The notes under the pieces were generated by a model. That model did no database searches, was not told where the DNA came from, and saw only the letters and a list, made by a program, of their open reading frames with translations. From Sphingomonas bacterium (GTDB taxonomy: Bacteria > Pseudomonadota > Alphaproteobacteria > Sphingomonadales > Sphingomonadaceae), in contig NZ_JAQGLG010000205.1 in the NCBI RefSeq assembly GCF_028292965.1, positions 1-51,758 on the forward strand: DNA of 51,758 nt, in the 5' to 3' direction. The position numbers and the translations under genes are program-made. Below, piece by piece: positions 8,292 through 35,510 of this stretch (position 1 is the stretch's first letter; each line of letters begins with the position of its first letter).

Positions 8292-9479
8292 ATGGCGGAT
8301 CTTCGTCGTACCTCAGGCCTGATCGCCGGGGCCGCTCTGTCGCTCGGCGTGGCGGCGGCGGCGTTATGGTCGACGGGCCATGCATGGCGCCAGCCGGCGC
8401 GGACAGAGGCGGAGAATGGCTATATCTCGGCGCTGAATGCGGCGATGCTCGATCCGCAGCAGGCCCGGCCGGCCGCACCGGCGGCGCTCGCATCGCCCGC
8501 GGCACGGTTGGCACATCGGCCGCTCGATCGTGGCGCACTGGCCCAGGTGGCGCTCGAGGCGACGCTGGTGGGCAAGCGCGATGTGGCGCGCCCGATCATG
8601 CAGGAAGTGGTGCGGCGCGATCCGCGCGCCAAGGCGGGGCGGATCTGGCTGATGGCGGACGCGCTGCGCCGTGACGATCTGCGCGCGGCGACCGGGCAGA
8701 TCGAACGGCTGATGGCGATCGATCCGGCGCAGAGCCTGGCCTATTTTCCGATCCTTGCCGATATTGCGAAGCAGCGCGGTGGCGAGCGGCTGATCGCGGG
8801 CATTCTTTCGCGCGGGCCGATGTGGCGGACGCAGTTCCTTGGTTTCCTGACCACGCGCGGTGTCGTGCCGGAATTGATCTTCCGCCTCAACACCGGTCCG
8901 TCGGGGAACACCAAGGTCGGTGGGGAGCCGGCCCAGGCGGCACTGATCCAGCAATTCATCGCCCGGGGCGATTATGACGGCGCTTATGTCGCCTGGGTCA
9001 ATTTCCTGCCGCCCGCGGCGCTGGCCAAGGTCACCACGGTGTATGACGGCGGTTTCGCCGGCTTGCCGGGGCCGCAGCCGTTCAACTGGTCGTTCAACGA
9101 TGGCGATGCCGCGTCGGTCGGCATCGATCGCGGGCATGGCCTGCACATCGAATATTCGGGCGCGCAGACCGCGCGGCTGGCCAGCCAGACCGTGCTGCTG
9201 AAGCCGGGCAGCTATCGCCTTGATTATACCGCGCAAGGGACAGGCGAGCTTGCCGATGGCGGCGCGATCAGCTGGCGCCTGCTGTGCGTGCCCGACAACA
9301 AGCCGGTGCTCGACCTGCCGATCACCGGCCTGACCGATCGCACCGTTGGCCGGGCGGCGCGGTTCACCGTGCCCGTCGGCTGCAACGCCCAGCTGCTGTC
9401 GATCGATGCGACGCTCGGCACCTTCCCGCAATCGCGCTCGCTGACCATCGCGCAGGTCGCGATCAACAGGGGTCCGTGA
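8292..9479 (+). CDS. Membrane-anchored TPR-like protein of the EPS operon, unknown function
   Basis: The 395-residue protein sits between the co-polymerase and the ligase-family gene, with a clear ribosome site (agaggggac before ATG). Residues about 9-28 are a membrane anchor or signal (LIAGAALSLGVAAAALW). Residues about 75-200 are Ala/Leu/Arg-rich helices with TPR-like spacing (ALAQVALEATLVGKRDVARP, AKAGRIWLMADAL). The C-terminal third looks like a beta-sandwich (FNWSFNDGD, LLKPGSYRLDY, ISWRLLC), which might bind carbohydrate. I do not recognise the family. Context suggests a periplasmic assembly or chain-handling factor. It ends in TGATG with the next gene, so the two are translationally coupled. 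Confidence 0.7.
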   Translation: MADLRRTSGLIAGAALSLGVAAAALWSTGHAWRQPARTEAENGYISALNAAMLDPQQARPAAPAALASPAARLAHRPLDRGALAQVALEATLVGKRDVARPIMQEVVRRDPRAKAGRIWLMADALRRDDLRAATGQIERLMAIDPAQSLAYFPILADIAKQRGGERLIAGILSRGPMWRTQFLGFLTTRGVVPELIFRLNTGPSGNTKVGGEPAQAALIQQFIARGDYDGAYVAWVNFLPPAALAKVTTVYDGGFAGLPGPQPFNWSFNDGDAASVGIDRGHGLHIEYSGAQTARLASQTVLLKPGSYRLDYTAQGTGELADGGAISWRLLCVPDNKPVLDLPITGLTDRTVGRAARFTVPVGCNAQLLSIDATLGTFPQSRSLTIAQVAINRGP

Positions 9480-10915
9480 TGGCCAGCTCTTCACGCTCAC
9501 GCCGGTCGAGCCGCTCGCGCAGCAGTTCGCTGACGCCAAGCTTCGCGCCGCGTACGTTGGCATTGCCAGGCTATCTCGCTGCGGCGATCGTGCTGGGCGG
9601 GGCTTCGGCGGCGGGGCTGATTCCCAATCTGCTGCTTCAGCTCGGCGGCGCAGCGGTGCTGTTCCTCGCTTTTCTGCGGCCGTCGCATCGTCCCGCCGCC
9701 GCGGCCGAGAAGATGCTGTTGTGGATAGGCGTGGCGTTCGTCGTGGTGGCGCTGATCCAGCTCATCCCATTGCCGGCGAGCCTGTGGTCGTCGCTTGGCG
9801 GCCGCGCCTCGGTGGCGCACGGCTTCACCCTTATCGGCGCGCCGCTGCCCGCCTTGCCGCTGTCGCTCGATCCGAGGGCGACGGTGGCCAGCCTGTTGAG
9901 CGTGACCGTCGCGGCAGGGATGTTCGTGCTGGTCCGCCGCGCCGACGACCGCCAGCTCGCCGCCTTCGCGGTGACGCTGACGGTGATGGCTGCATTGTCG
10001 GTGGTGCTGGGCTTGATCCAGCTGGTCAACGGCCAGAATTCGCCGCTGTATCTCTACACCAACACCAATCGTGGCCAGCCGGTCGGCTTCTTCGCCAACA
10101 GCAACCATCTGGCGACCCTGGTGCTGAGCGCCGTGCCGTTCCTGGCGGCGCTGGTCGCCACCGCGCGCGCGCGCGGCGCCGAGAAGGTCGGCGGCGGGGC
10201 GGCGGACATCATCGTGCTCGGTGCATTGGCGGTGATCCTGTTGCTTGGTGCCGTGGTCGATGGTTCGATTGCCGGGCTGGGCCTGTTGGTGCCGACCTTG
10301 CTCGGCTCTTTTTTCCTGATCCGGCGCGGGCGCGACCGGCGGCAGTTGCTGATCGGCGCGGCGGTGTTGCTGGTGCTGGTCGGTATCTTCGTCGTGCTGG
10401 CCTTCAACAGTCCGATTCTCGACGGTTATGCCAAGACCTCGATCGATGCCGGTCCGACCTCGCGGCTCGGTTTCTACCAGCATGGTATCGCGGCGATCAG
10501 GGCCTATTTTCCGCTCGGGACGGGGCTGGGCAGTTTCGTGTCGGTGTTCCCGGCGTTCGAGAACCCGCAATTGGTCGACTCGATCTTCGTCAACCACGCG
10601 CATAACGACTATATCGAGATCGCTCTTGAACTGGGGCTGGCGGGGATCGTGCTGATCATCGCTTTCCTTGCCTGGTGGGCGTGGCGCGCGCTGGCGATCT
10701 GGCGCGATCGCGACAACGGGTTGCTGCCGCGCGCGGCGACGATCAGCTCGGCGATCATCCTGGCGCACAGCCTGGTCGACTATCCGGCGCGGACCGCCGC
10801 GATCCTGGCGGTGATGACCGCGTGCTGCGCGATCATGGCGCGGCCGACGCGGATATTGCCGCCACCGCCGCCGGCCGACGAGGCTGCGGCGCCGGCACGC
10901 CATCTGGCGGCGTGA
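9479..10915 (+). CDS. O-antigen ligase/polymerase family membrane protein (Wzy_C type)
   Basis: About 478 residues with a basic, Ser/Arg-rich N-terminus (SSRSRRSSRSRSSS) and around ten or more hydrophobic segments. The diagnostic periplasmic loop NHAHNDYIEIALELGLAG near residues 367-384 belongs to the WaaL/Wzy_C family. Such proteins join lipid-linked oligosaccharides into a polymer or transfer polymer to an acceptor at the periplasmic face. ATG 9479 overlaps the upstream stop (TGATG), so the track start at 9284 is a shadow extension. In sphingan loci a gene of this class next to the co-polymerase usually acts as polymerase. A second, unrelated polymerase candidate lies at 29994. Confidence 0.87.
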   Translation: MASSSRSRRSSRSRSSSLTPSFAPRTLALPGYLAAAIVLGGASAAGLIPNLLLQLGGAAVLFLAFLRPSHRPAAAAEKMLLWIGVAFVVVALIQLIPLPASLWSSLGGRASVAHGFTLIGAPLPALPLSLDPRATVASLLSVTVAAGMFVLVRRADDRQLAAFAVTLTVMAALSVVLGLIQLVNGQNSPLYLYTNTNRGQPVGFFANSNHLATLVLSAVPFLAALVATARARGAEKVGGGAADIIVLGALAVILLLGAVVDGSIAGLGLLVPTLLGSFFLIRRGRDRRQLLIGAAVLLVLVGIFVVLAFNSPILDGYAKTSIDAGPTSRLGFYQHGIAAIRAYFPLGTGLGSFVSVFPAFENPQLVDSIFVNHAHNDYIEIALELGLAGIVLIIAFLAWWAWRALAIWRDRDNGLLPRAATISSAIILAHSLVDYPARTAAILAVMTACCAIMARPTRILPPPPPADEAAAPARHLAA

Positions 10916-11007
10916 CGAGGCGCGATCGATAGCTGTATCGCAGTGCAGCATGCGCCGCTATGCATCGCCGGCTTCCCGCGGCACGGGTAATGATTCGAGG
11001 GGTTTTT

Positions 11008-12066
11008 GTGACCAAGACGGCGCTCATTACCGGCATTACGGGTCAGGACGGGGCCTATCTCGCCGAATTGCTGCTGGCCAAGGGTTATATGGTGCACGGC
11101 ATCAAGCGCCGCTCTTCGTCATTCAACACCGGCCGTATCGACCATCTCTATGAGGATCCGCACGAGCAGGGCGTGAAGCTCAAGCTGCATCATGGCGACA
11201 TGACGGATTCGACCAATCTGATCCGCATCGTGCAGGAGACGCAGCCCGACGAAATCTACAATCTCGCCGCGATGAGCCATGTCCAGGTCAGCTTCGAGAC
11301 GCCGGAATATACCGCCAATGCCGACGGCATCGGCACGTTGCGCCTGCTCGAGGCGATCCGGCTGCTCGGCATGACCGAGAAGGTGCGTTTTTACCAGGCG
11401 TCGACATCGGAGCTGTACGGCTGGGTGCGCGAGATTCCGCAGAGCGAGACGACGCCCTTCTATCCGCGCTCGCCTTATGCCGCGGCCAAGCTCTACGCTT
11501 ACTGGATCACAGTGAACTATCGTGAGGGGTATGGGATGCATGCCTCGAACGGCATCTTGTTCAACCATGAGAGCCCGCTGCGTGGCGAGACCTTCGTCAC
11601 GCGCAAGATCACGCGGGCGGTGGCGGCGATCACGCTGGGGCTGCAGGACACGCTGTATCTCGGCAACATGGATGCCAAGCGTGACTGGGGCCATGCGCGA
11701 GATTATGTCGAGGGCATGTGGCGCATCCTGCAGCAGGACACGCCCGACGACTATGTGCTGGCGACCGGCGAAACGCGCACCGTGCGCGAATTCGTCGAAC
11801 TGGCGTTCCGCGAAGTCGATGTCGAGATCGTATGGAGCGGCGAGGGGGTCGACGAGATCGGCCGTTGCGCGAAAACCGGCCGCGCGCTGGTCAAGGTCGA
11901 TCCGCGCTACTTCCGCCCGACCGAAGTCGATATCCTGATCGGCAACCCGGCCAAGGCGAAGGAAAAGCTCGGCTGGACCGCGACGGTGAAACTGCCGGAG
12001 CTGGTCGCCGAGATGGTCCGTTCGGACCTCGACACGATCAAGCGTGAGGGGCGGTCGGGCTCTTGA
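11008..12066 (+). CDS. gmd: GDP-mannose 4,6-dehydratase
   Basis: Converts GDP-D-mannose to GDP-4-keto-6-deoxy-D-mannose, the branch point to GDP-L-fucose and other deoxy sugars. It has 352 residues from GTG 11008, chosen because gaggggttttt precedes it and [17 protein letters not shown] is the usual N-terminus; the track's 10960 start is longer than the family. NADP-binding [23 protein letters not shown] and the catalytic YAAAK are present, with [16 protein letters not shown] typical of Gmd. The gene is followed by fcl with a TTGA overlap, so the two steps are coupled. Confidence 0.95.
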
Positions 12067-13028
12067 GCGATACGATGTTCGATCTTGCCGGAAAGCGCGT
12101 CTATATCGCCGGCCATCGCGGGATGGTCGGCAGTGCGTTGATGCGCCGGCTGGCCGGCGAGGGCTGCACGCTGCTGACCGCAGCGCGGGCCGAGCTTGAT
12201 CTCAGGCGTCAGGATCAGGTCGAGGCATGGTTCGCAGCCAACAAGCCCGATGTGGTGTTTCTTGCGGCGGCGCGTGTCGGCGGGATCTGGGCGAACAGCA
12301 ATTTCCCCGGCGAGTTCATCTACGAAAACATGATGGTCGAGGCGAATGTGATCGAGGCGGCGCGTGCCAATGGCGTCGCCAAGCTGCTGTTCCTCGGCTC
12401 GGCCTGTATCTATCCGCGCGACGCACCGCAGCCGATTCCGGAGAGCGCGCTGCTCACCGGGCCGCTCGAGCCGACCAACGAATGGTATGCGGTGGCCAAG
12501 ATCGCCGGGATCAAGCTCGCGCAAGGCTATCGCCAGCAATATGGCTGCGACTTCATCTCGGCCCAGCCGACCAATCTCTACGGGCCGGGGGACAATTTCG
12601 ACCTGAAACAGAGCCATGTCATACCGGCACTGATCCGCAAGGCGCAGGCCGCCAAGGACGCCGGCGATGCGACGATCCCGATCTGGGGCTCCGGCACACC
12701 GCAGCGCGAATTTTTGCACGTCGACGACCTAGCCGATGCGCTTGTGTTTCTCACCCAGACGTATAGCGACGCGGGCATCGTCAATGTCGGCAGCGGCGAG
12801 GAAGTGACCATCCGCGAACTCGCCGAAACGGTGAACCGGGTGGTCGGTTATGACGGCACGCTGACGTTCGACGCCAGCAAGCCCGATGGCGTGATGCGCA
12901 AGCTGGTCGATGTGAGCAAGATCAATGCGCTGGGTTGGCGACACCGGTACGGGCTGGCGGAGGGGCTGGCCCATACCTATCGCTGGTTTCTTGAACATCA
13001 TGCCGACGCGCGCGGGCTGGACGGCTGA
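12063..13028 (+). CDS. fcl: GDP-L-fucose synthase (epimerase/reductase)
   Basis: Takes the Gmd product to GDP-L-fucose by double epimerisation and NADPH reduction. The 321-residue SDR has [43 protein letters not shown] with the catalytic Tyr/Lys, and [13 protein letters not shown]. Start TTG 12063 overlaps the gmd stop; ATG 12075 is the alternative and loses only four residues. Together with gmd it implies fucose or a fucose-derived sugar in the polymer. Confidence 0.95.
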
Positions 13029-18994: not shown

Positions 18995-20242
18995 ATGAAG
19001 CGTACCAAGTGCATGAATTGTGGCGAAGCGCGGCTTCACGAGTTCATCGACCTGGGCGACCAGCCCAACGGCAACAGCTTTCTCTACGCGAACGAACTCG
19101 ATCAGGAAGTCAGCTTCTCGCTGGCGATGATGGTGTGCGACAATTGCTGGCAGGTGCAGATCAGCGAATTTCCGTCGCAGGAAGTGCTGTTCAACGACCA
19201 TGCCTATATCACCGGCCGCAACGCGCCGGTGGTGGCGCATTTCAAGAAGCTCGCACCGCACATCATCGACAAGATCGGTCTCAAGGAGAACGACCTCGTC
19301 ATCGACGTGGGTTGTAACGATGGCACCTTCCTCAAGGCGTTCGCAAGCCAGGGCATGCGCGTGCTTGGCGTCGATCCGTCGGAGCGCACCGGCCTGCTCG
19401 CGCGCGACCAGGGCGTCACGGTGTTCCGCCAGTTCTGGTGCCACGAAACCGGAAAATCGCTGAAGCAGCTCGGCGTGAAGCCCAATGCGATCACCGCGAC
19501 CGCGGTGTTCTACCACGTCCCCGACCTGCATGATTTCGTCGCCGGCCTGGCCGAGGTGATGGGGCCTGACACGGTGTTCGTGGTGCAGGGCGTCAATTGC
19601 CTCGACCTGATCGAGCATAACGAGTTCGACCATTTCTATCACGAGCATAGCTGCATCCATGCCGTCGGCCCGCTGCAGCGACTGTTCGCGGCGCACGGCC
19701 TAGCCATTCGCGACGTGGAATTCTCGCCGATCCATGGCGGCAGCTTCATCCTCTACGTCTATCGCGAAGAGAATCCGATCGCCGAGAGCCCGGCGGTCGC
19801 CGCGGCGGTTGCGGCAGAAGAGGCCGCAGGCCTGTTCAAGCTGCAGACCTATGAGGATTTCGCCGCGCGCGTGCGCCACAACATGGCCGAGCTGCGCACT
19901 TTGCTCGAAAAGCTCAAGGCCGAGGGAAAGACGGTTTACGGGCTCGGCGCACCGGTCAAGGGTTCGACCGTGCTCAACTATGCCGATATCGGCCCGGACC
20001 TCGTTCAGGCGGTGACCGAGGTCAACGAGTTCAAGATCGGCCGCGTCACGCCGGGCACGCATATCCAGGTGATCGACGAAAATGCGGTCGACAAGCAGCC
20101 CGATTATTATCTCGTGCTCGCGTGGAACTTCCTCGACTTCCTGTTGAAGAAGAATGAGGATTATCTGCAGGCCGGCGGGCGGTTCATCACCCCCGTGCCC
20201 GAAGTGCAGATCCTTGGGCCGGGCGGCGTGCGCGAGGCGTGA
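18995..20242 (+). CDS. SAM-dependent sugar C-methyltransferase (NovU/TylC3-type)
   Basis: The 415-residue three-part protein matches deoxysugar C-methyltransferases. It has an N-terminal zinc site (CMNCGE at about 6-11 with CDNCWQ at about 46-51), a central SAM fold (VIDVGCNDGTFLKAF about 104-118), the active-site stretch EFDHFYHEHSCIH (about 211-223) with a Tyr-His-Glu-His cluster, and a C-terminal Rossmann domain (GKTVYGLGAPVKGSTVLNY). These enzymes methylate carbon next to a keto group on a nucleotide-bound deoxysugar. It overlaps the next SDR by GTGA. With gmd in the locus, a GDP-linked keto-deoxysugar is a reasonable substrate, giving a branched sugar. Confidence 0.87.
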   Translation: MKRTKCMNCGEARLHEFIDLGDQPNGNSFLYANELDQEVSFSLAMMVCDNCWQVQISEFPSQEVLFNDHAYITGRNAPVVAHFKKLAPHIIDKIGLKENDLVIDVGCNDGTFLKAFASQGMRVLGVDPSERTGLLARDQGVTVFRQFWCHETGKSLKQLGVKPNAITATAVFYHVPDLHDFVAGLAEVMGPDTVFVVQGVNCLDLIEHNEFDHFYHEHSCIHAVGPLQRLFAAHGLAIRDVEFSPIHGGSFILYVYREENPIAESPAVAAAVAAEEAAGLFKLQTYEDFAARVRHNMAELRTLLEKLKAEGKTVYGLGAPVKGSTVLNYADIGPDLVQAVTEVNEFKIGRVTPGTHIQVIDENAVDKQPDYYLVLAWNFLDFLLKKNEDYLQAGGRFITPVPEVQILGPGGVREA

Positions 20243-21195
20243 GTTCAGCCATGAAGAACGTCATTGTCACCGGGGCGACGGGGTTTGTCGGGCAGACGCT
20301 GGTGCGCGAGATCGCGGCCCGCTTTCCCGAGGCGAACATCATCGCGCTGGGCAGCAAGGCGGTCAATCTGGCCGACAAGGATGCGCTGTGGACGTATCTC
20401 GAGAACCTACAATGGACCTTCGAGTGCGACCACATCATTCACCTCGCCGCGCTGTACAAGGCGGGGGACTGGCCGGTGCATCACCCGGCGACGCAGTTCC
20501 ACGTCAACATGGCGATCAACATCAACATCCTCGAAGGCTGGCGGCGTTTCTTGCCCAAGGCGAAGATGACGTCGATCGTCTCCTATTGCCTCTATCCTTC
20601 GACCGAGCACCCGCATCCCGAGAGCGAGCTGTGGGGGCATGAGCCCGAAGATTATCTCTTCGCTTATGCCTTCACCAAGAAGGCGCTGCTGATCGGCCAG
20701 CGGGCGTACAGGCAGGAGCATGGCCTGACTTCGACCAGCGTGGTGCTGCCGACGGTCTATGGCGGCGGCGACAGCTTTGCCGAGAACAGCCATGTCGTGG
20801 GCGCGCTGGTCGGCAAGTTCGTCCGCGCGGCGCGCGCCGGCACGCCGACCGTCGAGGTATGGGGCACCGGCGAGCAGCAGCGCGAATTCCTGCTGGTCGA
20901 GGATGCCGCCGACGGGATCATCAAGGCGGCACTGCATTCGGAAGAGGCAGCGCTCAACCTCGGCATGGGCGATGCCTATGCCATTTCCGACATCGCCCAC
21001 TGGATCAAGGAAGCCGCCGGCTTCAAGGGCGAGATCGTCTATAACAACAACAAGTTCGTCGGCGTGCGCAAGCGCATGCTCGATGTGACCAAGGTGCGTG
21101 ACGTGCTCGGTTGGACCGCCGAAACATCGATCCGCGACGGGCTGAAGAAGACGGTCGACTGGTACAATGCCGATCTGGATCGCGTGGCCGGTTAA
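20239..21195 (+). CDS. NAD-dependent epimerase, GDP-fucose-synthase-like SDR
   Basis: The 318-residue SDR has VIVTGATGFVGQTLV, SYCLYPST in the place of the fucose-synthase CIYP motif, FAYAFTKKALL (Tyr/Lys catalytic pair) and PTVYGGGDSF. Start GTG 20239 is coupled to the methyltransferase stop; ATG 20251 is equally possible. It is a second, divergent relative of fcl (12063), which suggests it epimerises and/or reduces a modified sugar, probably the C-methylated 4-keto sugar made by its neighbour. The next gene is convergent, only 3-4 bases apart. Confidence 0.83.
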   Translation: MSSAMKNVIVTGATGFVGQTLVREIAARFPEANIIALGSKAVNLADKDALWTYLENLQWTFECDHIIHLAALYKAGDWPVHHPATQFHVNMAININILEGWRRFLPKAKMTSIVSYCLYPSTEHPHPESELWGHEPEDYLFAYAFTKKALLIGQRAYRQEHGLTSTSVVLPTVYGGGDSFAENSHVVGALVGKFVRAARAGTPTVEVWGTGEQQREFLLVEDAADGIIKAALHSEEAALNLGMGDAYAISDIAHWIKEAAGFKGEIVYNNNKFVGVRKRMLDVTKVRDVLGWTAETSIRDGLKKTVDWYNADLDRVAG

Positions 21196-22127
21196 CGCTC
21201 GTCCGGCGCTGAACGATAGGCGTTGTCGAAAGCGGTAGCGATGGCGTCGACGGCTTCTGTCCGGTCGATTTCACGCGCGGCGGCCAGCACCGCGTCGAGC
21301 CGTTCCAACACGGATGACGTGTAGATCAGCTTTGCGGCCGGAGCGTTCCGCGCGACCAGGCAATAAGGGAGCAGAATCGCGAGTGCGTTTCGTGGTGCGA
21401 GCTTGGCGAAGGCGTCGAGTACCTGATCGGCGGCGGCGGCATAGCGCGGGTCGTTGGCGCGTGCCCAGCCGTCGGTCTTAACCAGGGTGTGGAGGATCGT
21501 GGGTGCGTCGGGCAGCATGGTCGGCGCGAGCAGCATCGCCGGATCGATGGCAGCCTGCATCGTCCAGTGTGCCGGGCAGGCGGCACGCAGGGCAGGGTCG
21601 TAGACCGTCCCGTTGGCGATGCCGACATGGCCGGCGCGTCCCTCCGCGAGAAGGCGGTCGAGGAAGGCGACGATATGCGGCGCCGGTGGCGCGGCATGGC
21701 TTTCGTGCAGCAGAAGCTGATCGATCGGCGTGCGTCGCAGCTTCCTCGCCGTAATGGCGAACGACTCCGCCATGAAGGCGGGATCGAAACAGCCCTCCGC
21801 CGCATGGCCCTGGCCCGGCATCGACGGTTGATAGGGCGGGGTCGCGCGCGGACCGCCACGCACCAGCCGCAGCGCGCGCCGCGCCACCGTCTTGAGCAGT
21901 GGCGCTGCCGGCCGGGCCGAGCCGATCTTGGCGGTGATCGCGACCTGCGGGTCGTCGCCAAAGGCTTGCCCGACGACATCCTCGGCGGTGCCGATGCCAT
22001 AGGAAGGCGCGGTGTCGAAATGGCCGATACCGCTCGCCCGGGCATGGTCGAGAAGCCGGCGCGACTCAGCGGTAGAGGCGCCGCCGGTCAGGTGACCGCA
22101 ACCCAGCACGAGACGCGGAATCAGCAT
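21192..22127 (-). CDS. Aldo/keto reductase
   Basis: The 311-residue protein starts at ATG 22127 (MLIPRLVLGCGHLTGG) and overlaps the end of the GMC oxidoreductase by seven bases. The track's 698-residue ORF is a frame extension antisense-like through that gene. The catalytic tetrad is visible: Asp and Tyr in FDTAPSYGIG, Lys in AITAKIG, His in LLLHES. It reduces carbonyls to alcohols using NADPH or NADH. Tail-to-tail overlap with the fcl-like SDR (4 bases) and coupling to the GMC enzyme place it in a sugar-modifying group. Confidence 0.87.
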   Translation of the reverse strand: MLIPRLVLGCGHLTGGASTAESRRLLDHARASGIGHFDTAPSYGIGTAEDVVGQAFGDDPQVAITAKIGSARPAAPLLKTVARRALRLVRGGPRATPPYQPSMPGQGHAAEGCFDPAFMAESFAITARKLRRTPIDQLLLHESHAAPPAPHIVAFLDRLLAEGRAGHVGIANGTVYDPALRAACPAHWTMQAAIDPAMLLAPTMLPDAPTILHTLVKTDGWARANDPRYAAAADQVLDAFAKLAPRNALAILLPYCLVARNAPAAKLIYTSSVLERLDAVLAAAREIDRTEAVDAIATAFDNAYRSAPDER

Positions 22128-23692
22128 CGACCGTCTCCGATATCGGCATCGAGGCGCTCGGCCAGCCTGAGCGCGAGCGCGATCGCGGTCAATGTCGGGT
22201 TGGCGAAGCTGCCGGAAGGGAAGGTGGCCGCGCCGAGCACCGACAGATTGTCGCAACCGAAGACGCGCAGGTCGCGGTCGACCACACCTTCGCCGGCGTC
22301 TGCCGCCATGCGCGCGCCGCCCATATGATGGAAGGCATCGTGCAGATCGGCGAACAGCGCCGGGTCGCGCGCCGCCACCCGCGGGTCGAGCGTAATCGTG
22401 CCGAGCCCGTGCTCGGCGAAACTGCGCGCCAGTTCGGCGCAGAACAGGTCCGCTGCCTCCAACTCGCGGCCATCGAACGCCCAATGCAGGCCGATCGCGG
22501 CGGTCTCGGGTGGGGCGGCGGGGTCGAGAAACAGGTACGATTCGGCAACCGGGATCTGTTCGATCTCGAGCCCGAGGAGAATGCCGCGATCGAACAGCGA
22601 ATAGGAGCGGCGGCGCACCAGATAGGTCCACAGGATCGGCGCGAGCATGCGCACGGTGCGGGCCGCTTCGGCCAGCGTCGCGCCGGCATGGCGCCAAGCG
22701 CCTTGGGCGAAGACGCGACGGAACAGGTCGCGCGCATCGGCCACTGCCTGCCTGATCGATCCGCTCGCGTTGAGGGTCGCGGCGCAGTTGGCGATGCCGT
22801 GACGCTCGAGGAATTCGTCCGAAGCGCGGACCTTGACCGAATATTTGCAGCCGTTGACGAGAATGTTCTCGAAGCCGGCACGCAGCCTGGCGACGTCGCC
22901 GCCCTCGACGCGACCCACGATGCCGTGGACGTGGTCGATGAAGCCGCGCCCGATATGGACGTTGCCCGCGAAGGGGCAGTCGGTTGCCGTGGCCGCGGCG
23001 CGCAACAGCAGGCGGGCCGCCTCCATGGTGCCGTTTGCGAGGACTACCTGCGGTGCGGTCAGGCGGTGGATGACTCCTTGGCGCGAGGTCGCCCGCACCG
23101 CCGCCACGCGCCCGTCTGGCGCGAACTCGAGCGCGGTCGCCTTGATGTCGGTGACGATGCGCAGCGTCGGCAGGTCGGCGATCTCGGTGGCGAACAATTT
23201 GGTGAAGTCGGCGACCGGCAGCCAGACATTCATCGTCGCCTCGAACGAGGCGCCAAGGTCGATCGGTGCGCCGCCGACGCGGCGCCACACGGCCCCAGGA
23301 TCGCGCGTCGCTTCCGCGACCCGAAGGAATTCGAAGGCGCGGTCGAACCAGGGCCGCAGCTCTTCATAATCGATCGGCCAGGCCGGCTTGCCGGCATAGG
23401 TGGCGCGAAAGTCGCTCGGACCGAACGGAACGAGCTGGCCGCCCCACAACCGCGTGGTGCCGCCAAGCGCCTTCATCCGGCCCTCGACTAAGCCGATATG
23501 ACCCAGGCCGGTGTTGGGCCCATGGTTGCGGGCCATGAAATCGGCCGGGGGCGTGGCTGGCCCTCCCTCGATCAGGGTGACGCGGCGCCCCGATCTGGCG
23601 AGCGCGAGCCCCAGCACAAGGCCGACCGCGCCGGCCCCGATAACCAGTATCTCCGGATCATTGCCGGGGAAGGGAGGGCCGTTGTTCAACAT
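22121..23692 (-). CDS. GMC-family FAD-dependent oxidoreductase
   Basis: About 523 residues from ATG 23692 (MLNNGPPFPG); the track start at 23752 adds 20 unlikely residues. The FAD-binding VIGAGAVGLVLGLALARSGRRV is at the N-terminus, GGTTRLWGGQLVPF follows, and the C-terminal HHMGGARMAADAGEGVVDRDLRV plus SGSFANPTLTAIALALRLAE is the GMC_oxred_C signature with the catalytic His region. Such enzymes oxidise alcohols, often sugar hydroxyls, with FAD. It is divergent from a glycosyltransferase (103-base gap) and coupled to an aldo/keto reductase. A sugar oxidation role is inferred. Confidence 0.88.
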   Translation of the reverse strand: MLNNGPPFPGNDPEILVIGAGAVGLVLGLALARSGRRVTLIEGGPATPPADFMARNHGPNTGLGHIGLVEGRMKALGGTTRLWGGQLVPFGPSDFRATYAGKPAWPIDYEELRPWFDRAFEFLRVAEATRDPGAVWRRVGGAPIDLGASFEATMNVWLPVADFTKLFATEIADLPTLRIVTDIKATALEFAPDGRVAAVRATSRQGVIHRLTAPQVVLANGTMEAARLLLRAAATATDCPFAGNVHIGRGFIDHVHGIVGRVEGGDVARLRAGFENILVNGCKYSVKVRASDEFLERHGIANCAATLNASGSIRQAVADARDLFRRVFAQGAWRHAGATLAEAARTVRMLAPILWTYLVRRRSYSLFDRGILLGLEIEQIPVAESYLFLDPAAPPETAAIGLHWAFDGRELEAADLFCAELARSFAEHGLGTITLDPRVAARDPALFADLHDAFHHMGGARMAADAGEGVVDRDLRVFGCDNLSVLGAATFPSGSFANPTLTAIALALRLAERLDADIGDGRC

Positions 23693-23795
23693 GCCTGCGA
23701 CGCTTTTTTGTCTCTTTGGTGCAGTGCGGGATGGCGTTCCGATACGGGCCATGCGAAGCGCTGACCAGTATCTTTACGGTCAGCGATGGGGAAAT

Positions 23796-25085
23796 ATGTC
23801 GGCCGGGACAAGCATTGGTTCGGGCGCCGGGGGCGAACGCGAGCGCTCGGCGATCGAATACACCATCCTGCGCGGCAGGCGGATGCTCGTCGTCGAGGAG
23901 GCGCTCAAGAACGAGAGCGGCCATTGGTATGAATATGTGAAGTCGGTCGCCGAGCTCAATCGACTGGCGGGCGCTGAGACCGTCGTGGTGTCGCATGTCG
24001 ATACCGACCCCGCCATTCGCCGTGAGATCGGCGCCCATGCGCTCTTTCCCTGGACCAGCTGGGACAATGTCTACCGCTACCCGCAGGCGTGGCGGCGCTA
24101 TCTCGGCATCGCCCACCACAATATCCGCGTTTACCGCGTGATGAGCCGCTTCGTGAAGCAGCATGGGCCGTTCGATATAGTGTTCGCGCCGACCGTGGCG
24201 ATCCATCATGTGCTAGGCTGGCGCTTGCTGATGGCGCGGCATGGCGGACGCGGGATCGGCCAGATCATCCTGCTGTTTCGCAACAATGCCGGCAGCTATG
24301 CCGATGACAGCAAGACCCCGGTGTTCAAGCGCTCGACCAACATCCTGAAATGGGCGCTGCAAAGCTTCCGGCCGCTGCTCGCGCGGGGGCGTGCGCGCTT
24401 CGCTACCGACAGCAAGAAGCTGGCGTTCGAGTATCGACACCTTTGCGGTATCGAACCGGAGGTGTTCCCCAGTCCGCGCATCGCACCGCCCGCGCCGCCG
24501 TCCCCACTGCTGCGCGCGCCGGGCGCGCCGGTGATCTTCAGCTGCCTCGGGCCGGCGCGATTCGAAAAGGGCATCGACGTGATGCAGGCGGCGATCGGGG
24601 CTTATCTCGAGCGCCATCCGCTAGGGCGGGCGCGCTTCGTGATTCAGTGGAACGATCCGATCCTCAATGCGGACGGCGCGCCCTATCTGCCCGACCCGGC
24701 ATTGCGCGCCGACCCCCGCGTCGAGTTGATCGAGCAGACGATGAGTAGCGCGGCCTATGACGCTGCGGTCGCGCGTACCGACTGCATGTTGTTGCCCTAT
24801 CGCCGCGCATCCTATTTCGCTCGGATCTCCGGCGTCGCGGTGGAGGCGGTCACGGCGGGCGTGCCGGTGATCTATACGCGCGATACCTGGAATGAGGATC
24901 TGGTGGTCGATCTCGGCGCCGGGATCGGTGTCGCCGATAATGACGTGAGCGGCCTGGCCGACGCGATCGCCACGATGGTCGAGGATTTCAATCGCTTCAG
25001 TGCCGAGGCCGTCGCCCGCGCCGACGCGGCGCGGCGCAGCCATTCGCCGATGGCGTTCGTGAGCAAGGCCTGGGGGCTCGATTGA
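23796..25085 (+). CDS. Glycosyltransferase, GT4-like
   Basis: A 429-residue GT-B type protein. ATG 23796 has a good ribosome site (gatggggaaat); ATG 23751 is the alternative and the track start 23511 runs antisense through the GMC gene. The C-terminal half has FSCLGPARFEKGIDVMQAA and LLPYRRASYFARISGVAVEAVTAGVPVIYT, the donor-binding region of GT4 enzymes. The N-terminal acceptor domain is less typical (LVVEEALKNESGHWYEYV). It probably adds one EPS sugar. A TTGA overlap couples it to the next glycosyltransferase. Confidence 0.8.
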   Translation: MSAGTSIGSGAGGERERSAIEYTILRGRRMLVVEEALKNESGHWYEYVKSVAELNRLAGAETVVVSHVDTDPAIRREIGAHALFPWTSWDNVYRYPQAWRRYLGIAHHNIRVYRVMSRFVKQHGPFDIVFAPTVAIHHVLGWRLLMARHGGRGIGQIILLFRNNAGSYADDSKTPVFKRSTNILKWALQSFRPLLARGRARFATDSKKLAFEYRHLCGIEPEVFPSPRIAPPAPPSPLLRAPGAPVIFSCLGPARFEKGIDVMQAAIGAYLERHPLGRARFVIQWNDPILNADGAPYLPDPALRADPRVELIEQTMSSAAYDAAVARTDCMLLPYRRASYFARISGVAVEAVTAGVPVIYTRDTWNEDLVVDLGAGIGVADNDVSGLADAIATMVEDFNRFSAEAVARADAARRSHSPMAFVSKAWGLD

Positions 25086-29892: not shown

Positions 29893-29997
29893 ATGCAGAT
29901 ATTTAGGGTCGCGAGCGAGCGTGATAGCGCTTACAGCCCCAGACGCTGTTGCGTGGGGAATCTGCGCCCGGCCAACGCGATGGAGGCGGTTGGATGA
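29893..29997 (+). CDS. Possible 34-codon leader ORF coupled to the wzy-like gene
   Basis: Directly after the glycosyltransferase stop (TGA-ATG), a 34-codon frame with a gggggat ribosome site reads MQIFRVASERD to NAMEAVG and ends in an ATGA overlap with the polymerase start at 29994. It exactly fills the gap. No similarity is recognised and base composition is ordinary. It could be a leader peptide, a relic, or chance; the polymerase has its own ggaggcgg site. Confidence 0.25.
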   Translation: MQIFRVASERDSAYSPRRCCVGNLRPANAMEAVG

Positions 29998-31412
29998 ATG
30001 CGGCTATGGTCAATCAGCCTTGGGTTGCGCCGGCGAACCCGCGTTTCAAATTATTCTCGACCCTGGCGGTCTGCTTTGGTTCGCTCATCATCTATTTTAC
30101 GATGCCGACGGATACGACCGAACTGGTGACCTATCGTTATTGTGCGTACGGACTGCTGGTCGTGCTGGGTGTAGCGCTTGGGGTTGAGGGTCTTGCCGGG
30201 GTTCGATCGTTGGCACGCGTCGATGTCGTCGCCCTATGGACGCTTTATTTCTTGACCTTCGCCGAATTTCTTCATCCGCACGTGCGCATTCTTTACACAG
30301 CCGCCACGGGCGACGCCGGCGTTGCGTGTGGTTTGGCCTTGGTCGGATTCGTTGGTATTGCGGTAGGCAGGCATATCGAAGTGCCTATCCGCGCGCGGCC
30401 CGAGCGGGCCAGGCTTCCGGAAATATCCCCGGCCAGCCTGCTTCGTATTTTTTTCCTGTTTTCATTCTTGGGTTATTTATATGTTCTGCTGACCACATCA
30501 TTTAATCCGTTCGAGATTTTTAGCTCATTGCTTCAGCAGCGCTTCGATCGTCCGTGGCAGAGAAATCAAGTTGGTGGCTGGGTATCTTTTTTGACCGAGC
30601 TAAACTTACTTCTTTATATTGTGGCGGCATTTGGTGGTCTCATTTTTGCTAATGCCAAATACTATGGGTTAAGCTCTAGGATCTCGGTCCTTGCCTTGCT
30701 TACATTCATGGCGTATTTTGATTTCTGTGAGGGTGCTCGTAATATACTTCTTATCAAGGCAGGATTGTTTCTGTGCACTTTCTTTATTGCCAGCCGCGAA
30801 ACACATACTGCCCGCCTCCTGATTACGGCGGCAGCTAGCATAGCATTGTTATGGGTGGTTTCCGGCTACATGTTGGATTTTCGCAACCAAGGATTGGGAA
30901 GTTATATTTCTACTGGTGCGGCGCAGCAACAGGATGATGGTTTCATGATCGACAACAACATGGTGTCGATTGCTCGCGTTGTCGGCGTCTTTCCTGACAC
31001 ATACCCATTTCCCGGTAGCGACATCGTTGTGCAGATGTTCACGAAGTGGATTCCTCGCGCACTATGGTCCGGTAAACCGGTTGCTTGGTCGACCAGCATC
31101 GAGGATGCATTGGCGACGGGCGGCGGCTATACGATCGCGGTGACCTGTGTGGGTGAAGCGTATCTTATTGCGGGTTATCCGAGCCTCATTGTCATTTCGT
31201 TGTTGATCGGAGCACTGACCTCGTGGTGGAATCGCGTTGGATTTGCTGCGCAGACCAATCTCGATCTTGTTTACTACGCCAGCGGCTTCTTCGCTGCCGC
31301 ACTGGGCATGCGCAGCCTTCAGTTTGTGTCGATCGCGATCGTGCCAACGTTGGCTTTATATATTTGTGGGCGAGTAATGTCTAATCCTAGATCAAGACTC
31401 TATAAGGCATGA
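29994..31412 (+). CDS. Oligosaccharide repeat-unit polymerase (Wzy-like)
   Basis: A 472-residue polytopic protein with about ten or more hydrophobic segments and a periplasmic loop (MLDFRNQGLGSYIS, then WIPRALWSGKPVAWS). The end, VTCVGEAYLIAGYPSLIVISLLIGAL, is typical of Wzy polymerases that join flipped repeat units at the periplasmic face. ATG 29994 follows ggaggcggttgg; the track start 29949 is upstream. From about 30400 the base composition is clearly more AT-rich than the surrounding genes, which suggests recent acquisition, as is common for wzy. It is distinct from the ligase-family protein at 9479. Confidence 0.85.
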   Translation: MNAAMVNQPWVAPANPRFKLFSTLAVCFGSLIIYFTMPTDTTELVTYRYCAYGLLVVLGVALGVEGLAGVRSLARVDVVALWTLYFLTFAEFLHPHVRILYTAATGDAGVACGLALVGFVGIAVGRHIEVPIRARPERARLPEISPASLLRIFFLFSFLGYLYVLLTTSFNPFEIFSSLLQQRFDRPWQRNQVGGWVSFLTELNLLLYIVAAFGGLIFANAKYYGLSSRISVLALLTFMAYFDFCEGARNILLIKAGLFLCTFFIASRETHTARLLITAAASIALLWVVSGYMLDFRNQGLGSYISTGAAQQQDDGFMIDNNMVSIARVVGVFPDTYPFPGSDIVVQMFTKWIPRALWSGKPVAWSTSIEDALATGGGYTIAVTCVGEAYLIAGYPSLIVISLLIGALTSWWNRVGFAAQTNLDLVYYASGFFAAALGMRSLQFVSIAIVPTLALYICGRVMSNPRSRLYKA

Positions 31413-31524
31413 TATAATGCTGTTAGATTAACCGCCGCTGCTTACCTAGCAAGGTCACCGATGTTAAATTAATCGATTCGGAATAATTGAATAACCTATC
31501 ACTATTGAGCGAATTTATATTAAC
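31413..31524. other. AT-rich intergenic spacer
   Basis: These 112 bases (for example gttaaattaatcgattc) are far more AT-rich than the window average and continue the low-GC zone of the polymerase gene. No clear terminator or ribosome site for the next gene is visible, but a promoter is possible. Confidence 0.5.
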
Positions 31525-32688
31525 GTGAGTAATATATTGACTGACGAATATCGAGAAGATAAAAATAGGATGCCGCATCTTGATATGATTCGTGGCCTTG
31601 CTGCCGTTGAAGTTGCCATTGGGCATCTGCGAGCATTTTTTTTCGTGGATTATGAACAGAGCCACGGCGGCTTGATGGCGAGGATATTCTATACGGTTAG
31701 CGGCTTGCATCATGAGGCCGTAATGATTTTTTTCGTGCTGAGTGGATTTCTGGTCGGCGGCAGCATCATTCGATTGAACCGAAGTGGCAAGTGGCGCTGG
31801 CAGAATTATCTTTTACGACGCCTGTGCCGCTTGTGGATCGTGATCATACCTGCATTGCTGCTGACCTTGATCTGGGACTCGCTTGGTGCACGCCTCAATC
31901 CCGCTGGCTATCAAGGCGCTTTTTATCCCCAGTTGTTGAGCGGTCCGATTGCGGGAAACGATTTGTCGCTAAAGGCCTTCGTCGGCAATCTGTTGTTTTT
32001 GCAGCGGATCGTCGTTCACTGCTTCGGCACCAACGGACCGATCTGGAGTCTCGCTAACGAGTTCTGGTATTACCTTCTGTTTCCACTTGGATTACAAGTC
32101 GTACTGCGCAAGGAGTCGCTTCTCGCAAGGGCCGCGGCTGTGGTTTTGCTCGGCGCGATTTATGCGCTTCTGCCCGCCTCGATCCTGTTATATGGCTCGG
32201 TATGGCTATTTGGCGTGCTCGCCTTTCTTGCGCTCGATCATCCGGCGACATCGCGCTCGGCATCGCACTGGCTGGTAGGCGTTGTTGCCTTGATCGCACT
32301 AGTCGCGGCGTTGCTCGCCAGCCGTGCGCGATTGCACTTCGACAATGATTTCGTCATAGGCGCCGCCTTCGCGATTGCGCTGCCATTCATGGCGCGGGTC
32401 GGAGCATCCTCGAGAGCTTATCGGCGGACTGGCTTCGCCCTGTCGGAAATGTCGTACACGCTTTACCTTGTCCACTTTCCGCTATTGGCTTTCGCCTACT
32501 TCACCTTGGCGGCGCCCGGCCAGTGGCAGTTCAGCCTGATCTCCATCGCCATGTTCGCGGGCATCCTGCTCTTGGTGATGGTCTATGCTATGGCGATCTG
32601 GTGGCTGTTCGAACGCAACACGGATCGCCTTCGCGCGTTTGTCGTGCAATGTCTTCAACGTGCCGGATGGCGGCGAACCTATGCCTGA
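31525..32688 (+). CDS. Membrane O-acyltransferase (acyltransferase 3 family)
   Basis: A 387-residue integral membrane protein with about ten hydrophobic segments. The opening HLDMIRGLAAVEVAIGHLRAFF has the R-G-x-A and conserved His typical of acyltransferase-3/OafA-type proteins, followed by FVLSGFLVGGSIIR and, near the end, SYTLYLVHFPLLAF. These move acetyl or other acyl groups to extracytoplasmic sugars. The start is uncertain: GTG 31525 has no clear ribosome site, and ATG 31570 begins just before the conserved region. The 5' part is AT-rich, and the 3' part returns to high GC. Confidence 0.87.
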   Translation: MSNILTDEYREDKNRMPHLDMIRGLAAVEVAIGHLRAFFFVDYEQSHGGLMARIFYTVSGLHHEAVMIFFVLSGFLVGGSIIRLNRSGKWRWQNYLLRRLCRLWIVIIPALLLTLIWDSLGARLNPAGYQGAFYPQLLSGPIAGNDLSLKAFVGNLLFLQRIVVHCFGTNGPIWSLANEFWYYLLFPLGLQVVLRKESLLARAAAVVLLGAIYALLPASILLYGSVWLFGVLAFLALDHPATSRSASHWLVGVVALIALVAALLASRARLHFDNDFVIGAAFAIALPFMARVGASSRAYRRTGFALSEMSYTLYLVHFPLLAFAYFTLAAPGQWQFSLISIAMFAGILLLVMVYAMAIWWLFERNTDRLRAFVVQCLQRAGWRRTYA

Positions 32689-33271
32689 CAAAGTGACCGC
32701 CATTGCCTCCGGCCGCATATTGCCTGCCCGCCAAGTGCTCGTGCGGCAGCCGCCGACATCTTTCTACAGCAAAGCAGGGCGCGGCCTTTGGAATATCGCC
32801 TGGTTCCTGCTTTACCGGCCATCGCCTCGTCCGCTTCATGGCTGGCGGCGGATGCTGTTACGCAGCTTCGGGGCGAAGATCGGGCGCGGCGCGAAACCTT
32901 ATCCCAGCGCCGTCATCTGGGCGCCGTGGAATCTGGTGATGGGCGAGCACAGCACGCTGGGCGACGCCGTAGATTGCTATTGCGTCGCCAGGGTCGAGAT
33001 CGGTGATCATGCCTCGGTCAGCCAGCGCGCTTATCTTTGCGCCGCGAGTCGCGATGTCGATGATCCTGACCACCCGCTAATGACCGCGCCGATCGTCATC
33101 GAGCGGCGCAGTTGGGTCGCGGCCGAAGCTTATGTCGGGCCGGGCGTGACGGTCCGCCAGGGCGGGGTGGTCGCCGCCCGCGCCGTCGTGGTGCGCGATG
33201 TCGAATCTTGGTCGGTGGTCGGCGGCAATCCCGCCAAACTTATCCGCAAACGTCAGCGACGGGAGGGCTGA
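32681..33271 (+). CDS. Colanic-acid-type acetyltransferase (WcaF-like, hexapeptide)
   Basis: A 196-residue protein from ATG 32681, overlapping the preceding gene by eight bases. SFYSKAGRGLWNIAWFLLYRPSP and LHGWRRMLLRSFGAKIGRG match the WcaF N-terminal region, followed by the hexapeptide beta-helix (VMGEHSTLGDAVDCYCVARVEIGDHASVSQRAYLC, IERRSWVAAEAYVGPGVTV) and a VVGGNPAKLIRKR close. It would acetylate a cytoplasmic sugar intermediate. The stop overlaps the next ATG (TGATG). Confidence 0.87.
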   Translation: MPDKVTAIASGRILPARQVLVRQPPTSFYSKAGRGLWNIAWFLLYRPSPRPLHGWRRMLLRSFGAKIGRGAKPYPSAVIWAPWNLVMGEHSTLGDAVDCYCVARVEIGDHASVSQRAYLCAASRDVDDPDHPLMTAPIVIERRSWVAAEAYVGPGVTVRQGGVVAARAVVVRDVESWSVVGGNPAKLIRKRQRREG

Positions 33272-34491
33272 TGACACCTCCACGCTTGTTGTTTGTCAAT
33301 CGCTTCTACCATCCCGATCACAGCGCTACTGCCCAAATCCTCACCGATCTGGCGGAGGCGCTGGTAGCGGGCGGTTGGGAGGTCGGCGTTATCGCCAGCC
33401 GATTGCGCTATGACGACCCCACGATGCTGTTGCCGGCGCGTGATTGCCATGCCGGCGTTACGATCCGGCGACTGTGGAGTTCGCGTTTCGGTCGCGCCGG
33501 GCTGCTGGGTCGGGCCGTGGATTATCTCTCTTTCTATATTACTGCCTTTTTCGCTATTCTTGTGACGGCACGCAGCGGCGACTTGGTCATCGTCAAGACG
33601 GACCCGCCATTGCTCTCTGTGGTTGCTAGCGCCGCGGTGCGCCTGCGTGGCGCCACGTTAATCAACTGGCTGCAAGATCTTTATCCCGAGATCGCCGCGG
33701 AGTTGGGCGTCGGCGCGATGCATGGGCCGCTGGGTCGACTCTTTCGCTGTTTGCGCAACGCATCGCTGCATCATGCACGTTTCAACGTCGCGATCGGCGA
33801 ACGCATGGCGGAGCGCCTCGTGGCGCTTGGTGTGGCGAAAAGCAAGGTTGTTGTGATGCCAAATTGGACCGATGATACCGCGATTCGGCCGATGGAGCAG
33901 GTTGAAGTGGGATTGCGCGAGGAATGGGGCCTGGGAGACAACTTCGTCGTCGCTTATTCAGGCAATCTCGGTCGTGCCCATGAATTCGAAACTCTCCTCG
34001 GCGCGGCGAAATTATTGTCTCTACGCAAGGAAATCGTTTTCCTGATGATTGGCGGCGGTCATGAAAGTGATCGCCTTGCCGCGCGTGTCGCTGAAGAGGG
34101 TTTGACGGCCCAGTTTCAATTTCGCCCTTATCAATCACGTTCACGCCTCAACGAGACACTAGCCGTGGCGAATTTGCATTGGCTGTCATTGCGGCCCGAA
34201 CTGGAAGGATTGATCGTCCCAAGTAAATTCTATGGTATCGCTGCAGCTGGCCGTCCTGTGATTGCCATCACAAACCTTGATGGCGAAATCGCGCGAATCG
34301 TGACGCGCGAACGTTGCGGCCTGGCCATCGCGCCGGGTGACTCTGCCGGTCTGGCCGCCGGAATATCCATGATGGTGGGCGATCCGAACCTTACTGCGAG
34401 GTTCGGAACGGCAGCCCGAGATTTGCTTGATCGTGAGTTCACCCGGGATAATATTTTTGAACGGTGGGTCCGCTTACTCCGTTCAGTATGA
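33271..34491 (+). CDS. Glycosyltransferase family 4 (WbuB/WcaI-like)
   Basis: A 406-residue GT-B enzyme starting MTPPRLLFVNRFYHPDHSATAQ, characteristic of WcaI/WbuB-type transferases. KTDPPLLSVV and INWLQDLYPEIAAELG mark the N-terminal half; VVAYSGNLGRAHEFETLLGAA and GLIVPSKFYGIAAAGRPVIAI mark the donor domain. Ribosome site gggaggg and TGATG coupling to the acetyltransferase fix the start. It likely adds fucose or an amino sugar, as in colanic acid and O-antigen clusters, though the donor cannot be read from sequence. Confidence 0.88.
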   Translation: MTPPRLLFVNRFYHPDHSATAQILTDLAEALVAGGWEVGVIASRLRYDDPTMLLPARDCHAGVTIRRLWSSRFGRAGLLGRAVDYLSFYITAFFAILVTARSGDLVIVKTDPPLLSVVASAAVRLRGATLINWLQDLYPEIAAELGVGAMHGPLGRLFRCLRNASLHHARFNVAIGERMAERLVALGVAKSKVVVMPNWTDDTAIRPMEQVEVGLREEWGLGDNFVVAYSGNLGRAHEFETLLGAAKLLSLRKEIVFLMIGGGHESDRLAARVAEEGLTAQFQFRPYQSRSRLNETLAVANLHWLSLRPELEGLIVPSKFYGIAAAGRPVIAITNLDGEIARIVTRERCGLAIAPGDSAGLAAGISMMVGDPNLTARFGTAARDLLDREFTRDNIFERWVRLLRSV

Positions 34492-34595: not shown

Positions 34596-35510
34596 GTGAT
34601 AGCATTTTTGATACTGGCACATAATGATCCGAGACAAGTTGCTCGACTAGTATCTAAGCTACAACCCCATCATGTTTTTATACATCTCGATAAAAAAACT
34701 TCCATGAGTCAAGAATGGGAAAGCATCCAAGCTGCGTTTGTTAAAGATCGCGTACCGGTTTATTGGGGAGATTTCTCACAGATCGAGGCCACTATAGCTC
34801 TCGTCAAACTTGCGCTTAGCTCAAGTGTTATTTATAGTAAATTAGTTCTAATTTCCGGATCTTGTTACCCGATAAGGCCGATGCGTGAGCTGGAAGCTTT
34901 ATTCAATTCGGATAATGGTTACAATTATATTGGCCGCATTCCCGTCGACGCTTCTGAAAAGCTGCGATGGATGACCGAACACAGATTCCACTGTGGTGGT
35001 TTTGTGCCCTGGCAGCTGAGCAGCCGCAGTGCGTGGGCGCGGTTGGTTGATCGTGGGCTACGAAGAATCTATTTTGAAACGGTCAGCAAGATAAGGCGTC
35101 CATGGACCAGTCGCGTTCGCCGATTCCATGGGAGTCAATGGTGGGCATTAAGCCCTGAATGCGGCGGATATGTCATTGAGCGGTTCGCAGATGAAGAGAC
35201 AGCATCTCTATATCGAAAGTCTATGATCCCCGATGAACAATTCTTTCATTCTATAGTGGCAGATTCTGTTTTCAAAGAAATAAGCGGCCCAGATGTGCCA
35301 TTTATTGGTGTAGGTGCGCACGTTGCGGCCAATCTTCATATTATAGATCCCGCACTGAAAAAGTGGTTCACTATCAGTGACTTTGAAGAAATAGGCATGA
35401 GCGAAAGGTTTTTTGTTCGCAAGGTGTCTACATCGGCATCGGCAGAACTGCTGGATAAGATAGATGATATGGTTGCCGCACGAGACGCAGGCTTTCGGGA
35501 TCGTTTGTGA
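34596..35510 (+). CDS. Core-2/I-branching-type glycosyltransferase (GT14)
   Basis: A 304-residue protein starting GTG 34596. FLILAHNDPRQVARLV, VFIHLDKK, VYWGDFSQIEATIALV and LVLISGSCYPIRP are the ordered motifs of the branching-enzyme family, which in animals adds beta-1,6-GlcNAc and in bacteria appears in capsule and EPS loci. The base composition of the gene and its 104-base upstream spacer is plainly AT-rich against high-GC neighbours, indicating lateral transfer. In this locus it may add a side chain. Confidence 0.85.
   Translation: MIAFLILAHNDPRQVARLVSKLQPHHVFIHLDKKTSMSQEWESIQAAFVKDRVPVYWGDFSQIEATIALVKLALSSSVIYSKLVLISGSCYPIRPMRELEALFNSDNGYNYIGRIPVDASEKLRWMTEHRFHCGGFVPWQLSSRSAWARLVDRGLRRIYFETVSKIRRPWTSRVRRFHGSQWWALSPECGGYVIERFADEETASLYRKSMIPDEQFFHSIVADSVFKEISGPDVPFIGVGAHVAANLHIIDPALKKWFTISDFEEIGMSERFFVRKVSTSASAELLDKIDDMVAARDAGFRDRL

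Follow-up and report, generated by a model that had tools for sequence, protein, structure and literature searches.

A C-methyltransferase gene paired with a diverged GDP-fucose synthase homologue, and a separate GMC–aldo/keto reductase module, in a Sphingomonas polysaccharide locus

The window analysed here, a stretch of 51,758 nucleotides from a Sphingomonas bacterium (GCF_028292965.1), is the entire contig C18 (NZ_JAQGLG010000205.1) of a 4.6-Mb assembly and carries four adjoining genes within a polysaccharide locus. On the forward strand lie the gene for a TylC3/TcaB9-type nucleoside diphosphate (NDP)-deoxysugar C-methyltransferase (MT; 18995..20242, ATG start, 415 amino acids) and fcl2 (20239..21195, GTG start, 318 amino acids), which encodes a diverged GDP-fucose-synthase-like short-chain dehydrogenase/reductase (SDR) with Epimerase/GDP_Man_Dehyd domain matches; the two overlap by 4 bases. 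On the opposite strand, between fcl2 and the gene for a family 4 glycosyltransferase (GT4; 23511..25085, forward strand, start probably after about 23600), are placed the genes of a divergent aldo/keto reductase (AKR; 21192..22130, coding from the ATG at 22127, 311 amino acids) and a FAD-dependent GMC oxidoreductase (GMC; 22121..23692). The longest open reading frame (ORF) of the latter spans 22121-23752, and the ATG at 23692 is the second one in frame and better matches the homologues. fcl2 and AKR meet tail to tail in the 4-base palindrome TTAA (21192-21195), and GMC and AKR share the 7 bases ATGCTGA (22121-22127). An earlier reading of this DNA (the original prediction) had described the four ORFs and the 4-base and 7-base overlaps correctly, as a check of the sequence confirmed. 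It had also taken the four genes for one branched-sugar cassette; they are, however, two independent modules, MT-fcl2 and GMC-AKR. Their arrangement is not fortuitous because MT and fcl2 are conserved at 72-97% in other species and the adjacency of GMC and AKR is kept in five other genomes.

The zinc-containing TylC3/TcaB9 class, to which MT had been assigned in the original prediction, is supported by domains, structural match and catalytic residues alike, and its predicted activity is transfer of a C-methyl group to an NDP-4-keto-sugar. Methyltransf_13, Methyltransf_23 and Methyltransf_14 each score above the Pfam cut-off, and the best match in the PDB is TylC3 (4rv9; E 2.6e-85, 36% identity over 407 residues); identity to TcaB9 is 34%. 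Two CxxC pairs (C6/C9 and C48/C51) and a SAM motif are present, and H174, Y215, E217 and H218 align with the catalytic residues H181, Y222, E224 and H225 of TcaB9. MT is the only Methyltransf_14 gene of its genome. Among 337 sampled Alphaproteobacteria the broader family is present in 65 (E<=1e-60), with no member other than the window's own gene exceeding 39% identity to MT, and a plasmid search with MT returned nothing but matches below 60%.

Fcl2 scores 164 bits against the curated GDP-L-fucose synthase model NF047922, far under the cut-off of 500, which places it outside the equivalog; GDP-fucose synthase is still its nearest curated family, the next one scoring 71 bits. The residues S107, C109, Y136, K140 and H179, which serve reduction and epimerisation in Fcl (PMC3539893), all have equivalents in Fcl2 (five of five by residue mapping), and at position 108 serine is replaced by tyrosine. 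W202 and R209 are retained and, together with V180 and L184, belong to the positions aligned with the nucleotide side of Fcl, most of which are kept. Of 400 genomes sampled from the family, no other contained an fcl2 relative at E<=1e-50, and the proteins that an Fcl2 profile retrieved from a phylum sample were all on a par with ordinary Fcl.

A scan with fcl2 alone, covering 84,980 species genomes, uncovered three close relatives (72-96%) in Sphingomonas sp. AR_OL41, the closest named one at 96%, in a metagenome-assembled genome of the Sphingomonadaceae and in Novosphingobium flavum. In all three, MT (73-97%) lies directly upstream, as expected from the predicted coupling of the methyltransferase to a diverged fcl homologue, and the same GT4 (57-70%) follows downstream, adjoining fcl2 in two of them (L025 and L026; L024 is AR_OL41). 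MT and Fcl2 of AR_OL41 are 96-97% identical to those of the window. Two further Alphaproteobacteria carry MT beside a more remote Fcl2-like SDR (33-35% identity). The MT-linked SDRs form one clade (support 100/100 without outgroup, rows L105 and L108 being left out of this final tree, and 98/94 with outgroup), and the matching methyltransferases cluster apart from the other sampled ones and from TylC3/TcaB9 (100/98; one archaeal methyltransferase falls inside). MT and Fcl2 have thus co-diverged, each in a supported subclade that also takes in the corresponding MT-SDR pairs from two further lineages of Alphaproteobacteria. A search of the 64 other MT-bearing Alphaproteobacteria found an SDR of the Fcl2 clade in only two (475-478 bits; all other matches below 193), in both cases adjoining MT; since both genomes had contributed to the profile, this result speaks for rarity and is no independent proof of linkage. 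We also considered that fcl2 might be a redundant fucose synthase gene, and rejected this because the protein fails the curated cut-off and groups in a clade of its own with the MT-linked SDRs. At L123:8380-12386 a distant MT-Fcl2-like pair is accompanied by genes for an HddA-like kinase and a guanylyltransferase-like protein, a setting that hints at GDP-heptose or another GDP-sugar as substrate.

The second module combines two oxidoreductases of recognisable family. AKR matches Aldo_ket_red with 51.7 bits (cut-off 24), its tetrad D38-Y43-K67-H141 is invariant among the paired AKRs, and its predicted structure (pLDDT 89) resembles NADPH-dependent aldo-keto reductases in foldseek (TM about 0.6); the (beta/alpha)8-type fold and the D-Y-K-H tetrad thus both mark it as a member of that family. 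GMC matches GMC_oxred_C with 72.3 bits (cut-off 24.6) and has the active-site His/Asn pair of its family, H447/N490 (numbered from base 23668), which is invariant in the aligned pairs. The N-terminal model GMC_oxred_N (PF00732) found no match in GMC at E<=0.001, although the predicted fold (pLDDT 85) matches GMC enzymes, i.e., fructose and glucose dehydrogenases, pyranose oxidases and C-glycoside oxidases. The cut-off of the curated pyranose oxidase model is not reached.

Neither AKR nor GMC occurs in any of the three close MT-fcl2-GT4 loci of other species. In AR_OL41 their place between fcl2 and GT4 is taken by a gene for an FkbM-type methyltransferase (L024:5378-6496); the position is a variable tailoring slot. 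Conversely, when 301 genomes sampled from the order were searched, five besides the window proved to have a close GMC (E<=1e-86) right beside an AKR; MT was seen at none of these loci, nor does fcl2 lie beside the pair. The pairs at L050, L051 and L053 (three of the five) sit among glycosyltransferase genes, and the L051 and L053 loci also hold gmd and fcl1. At none of the three close MT-fcl2 loci and the five GMC-AKR loci are the four genes thus kept together, and a single route through all four enzymes, as put forward in the original prediction, is disfavoured because three species keep MT-fcl2-GT4 without AKR and GMC and five sphingomonads have GMC-AKR without MT or fcl2. Codon-position G+C content gives no sign that AKR and GMC arrived recently from a foreign source in the window. 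At L049 (about 9158-11593), a GMC-AKR pair of low third-position G+C content lies next to an IS1595-family transposase gene and away from sugar genes, and this pair may be mobile by itself. More remote GMC-AKR neighbours are known from two further bacteria, an alphaproteobacterium and Cupriavidus metallidurans; on the megaplasmid of strain CH34 (L060:10010-12647), GMC precedes a same-type AKR (about 21% identity to that of the window) in a region with other oxidoreductase and CoA-transferase genes, outside any polysaccharide locus. A plasmid search with AKR gave no matches.

The surroundings of the two modules provide the context for their interpretation. The contig's polysaccharide locus comprises genes for Poly_export, Wzz/GNVR and Wzy_C (polymerase/ligase-type) proteins, a sugar-phosphate transferase (Bac_transf), a UDP-glucose dehydrogenase family protein, a UDP-glucuronate decarboxylase, a Gfo/Idh/MocA oxidoreductase, another SDR and many glycosyltransferases. 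It also contains, on the forward strand, gmd (10960..12066; TIGR01472, 601 bits, cut-off 415), the sole copy in the assembly (a single own-genome match at E<=1e-15), and fcl1 (12063..13028), which encodes a canonical GDP-L-fucose synthase (NF047922, 503.5 bits, cut-off 500). Both share a gene run with MT-fcl2, as they do in AR_OL41, and fcl1 adjoins MT in L025.

We propose that Gmd, MT and Fcl2 together make a GDP-linked C-methyl-6-deoxyhexose beside the separate GMC-AKR module, an explanation that, taken as a whole, we hold to be somewhat more likely than not. The branched-sugar part of the original prediction is borne out to this extent: the gene pair on which it builds is well supported, the GDP route moderately so, and only the single four-enzyme route is disfavoured. 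The gene set of a virenose-type GDP route, consisting of Gmd, a C-methyltransferase and an Fcl-like SDR, is present in one locus. Sugar, nucleotide, substrates, methyl position and stereochemistry, as we infer them, would then be as follows. Gmd would provide GDP-4-keto-6-deoxy-D-mannose, a role for which the original prediction had already singled it out and which its score for the family upholds. With SAM as donor, MT would act by deprotonation next to the C4 ketone and place the methyl group on a ring carbon, most likely C3. Since the chemistry of this family requires the C4 ketone, methylation should precede reduction at C4, so that the order would be Gmd, MT and Fcl2, in agreement with one published scheme (PMC3539893) and at variance with the order suggested in another (PMC3204966). 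Fcl2 would take the methylated 4-keto intermediate and reduce C4 with NADPH; because the epimerase residues are intact it may also invert C5, the only centre it could epimerise given that the methylated C3 carries no hydrogen. The product may belong to the L series and be virenose-like, and the linked GT4 is a candidate for the transferase that puts it into the polysaccharide.

Several observations weigh against this proposal. Characterised C-methyltransferases of the class use dTDP- or CDP-sugars and not GDP-sugars (PMC3539893), and genes for RmlA and RmlB are also present in this genome. The rows of the Fcl2 clade sit on long branches, which makes deep relations uncertain. The MT-SDR adjacency at L064 and L083 is no independent test, as both loci were found via MT; no Gmd is visible near these two pairs, and L064 has an HddA-like kinase and a guanylyltransferase-like gene as neighbours. 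The second module is not always found in sugar loci either, the L052 pair lying beside a GTP cyclohydrolase II gene and the L049 pair beside the transposase. In the window, rmlA (936-1730) lacks about the first 26 model positions, and the neighbouring rmlB (dTDP-glucose 4,6-dehydratase; 1727-2745) is split across the overlapping frames 1754-2098 and 2077-2742, so it has suffered a frameshift or an assembly error; an intact RmlB is encoded elsewhere in the same genome (contig C238, 44749-45750).

With rmlA in the window and the intact RmlB on another contig, MT could instead act on dTDP-4-keto-6-deoxyglucose and Fcl2 reduce a dTDP-sugar. The solved relatives of MT retrieved by the PDB search, all of which we take to be dTDP-sugar enzymes, point the same way. 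Fcl2, however, is closest to GDP-fucose synthase with most nucleotide-side residues (W202, R209, V180 and L184) kept, and gmd and fcl1 accompany MT-fcl2 as described above, so that we give this possibility about one chance in five. Somewhat less probable still is that GMC and AKR add a further oxidation and reduction to the C-methyl sugar of MT and Fcl2: the genes do adjoin with overlapping ends, and AKR-GMC fills precisely the space between fcl2 and GT4, the presumed user of the product, but the pair is on the opposite strand and each module persists without the other, in three species and five genomes, respectively. The least likely of the three alternatives concerns the methyl position. The family of MT includes C5-methyltransferases such as NovU, and the sequence does not fix the position; MT might therefore methylate C5 and Fcl2 act as a 3-epimerase/4-reductase or a plain 4-reductase. 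The nearest solved relatives, however, are named as C3 enzymes.

As to the proposed GDP route's neighbour, the overlap of an oxidase gene with a reductase gene suggests that a hydroxyl is first oxidised to a ketone, which is then reduced stereospecifically, and a likely role of GMC-AKR is such an oxidise-then-reduce epimerisation. GMC would turn a secondary sugar hydroxyl into a ketone that AKR would reduce back, probably with inverted configuration, and both would constitute a separate tailoring pair between fcl2 and GT4. It is tempting, if distinctly speculative, to go further and regard MT-Fcl2 as a dedicated GDP-linked C-methylation pair, in which a special subfamily of Fcl, working beside ordinary Fcl, reduces C-methylated 4-keto sugars and also epimerises them at C5. 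GMC-AKR would in that case be a so far undescribed sugar epimerase made up of two enzymes, one for flavin oxidation and one for NADPH reduction, that plugs into different polysaccharide clusters.

Elsewhere in the window, a Core-2/I-branching glycosyltransferase gene (34596-35507) has a G+C content of 46% (41% at third positions) as compared with 60-70% in the locus and is probably of foreign origin; the genes at 29949-34491 are likewise of lower G+C content.

Methyl-branched sugars are rare surface markers. Proposals that they arise by a GDP route go back years, and a literature search found no tested methyltransferase or reductase of such a route, nor anything relevant on 3-C-methyl sugars in Sphingomonas. 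AR_OL41, with its close copies of MT and Fcl2 and a canonical Fcl nearby in the locus to serve as control, would allow the GDP route to be tested directly. The slot, which GMC-AKR occupies in the window and FkbM in AR_OL41, illustrates the way in which clusters of this sort vary their sugars.

How do the two modules compare with known systems? The logic proposed for GMC-AKR resembles that of DprE1/DprE2, in which a flavoenzyme oxidises a sugar hydroxyl and an NAD(P)H enzyme reduces the product; the folds (GMC and AKR) are different ones, and the pair is not a member of that family. Pyranose oxidases, C-glycoside 3-oxidases and glucose/fructose dehydrogenases are the nearest solved folds of GMC and share its His/Asn pair, whereas identity in the fold search is only 12-19% and the PF00732 model is unmatched. 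An operon for CDP-cillose and CDP-cereose was reportedly described in Bacillus cereus by Li et al. in 2017 (cited in PMC9095892). As proposed for MT-fcl2, rare branched sugars are made there for a surface glycan, by a small operon; it is not known to have any Gmd/Fcl logic. Its sugars are CDP-linked (PMC7725333). With the 3-C-methyltransferases TylC3 (4rv9) and TcaB9-KijD1 (3ndi), MT shares full-length three-domain homology, the CxxC pairs and the H/Y/E/H residues, but it is only 34-36% identical to them and has an Fcl-like SDR as partner in a Gmd context instead of antibiotic-pathway reductases. The original prediction knew of no described pathway with its exact gene set. This holds for the AKR-GMC pair, for which the literature yielded neither a pathway nor a role of a GMC and AKR pair in polysaccharide synthesis. 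The Gmd, C-methyltransferase and Fcl-like part, by contrast, has been proposed for virenose (6-deoxy-3-C-methylgulose) in Coxiella burnetii (CBU_0688/0689/0691; PMC3539893, with a related scheme in PMC3204966), the methyltransferase and reductase steps being proposals in both papers. As there, Gmd, a TylC3-type C-methyltransferase and a GDP-fucose-synthase-like SDR are found in one polysaccharide region; unlike Coxiella, whose Fcl is near canonical (45% identity to that of E. coli; PMC3539893), the window encodes a canonical Fcl1 and a distinct diverged Fcl2. What is new here is that a diverged Fcl2 stands beside a canonical Fcl1 and has co-diverged with MT, and that GT4 is conserved.

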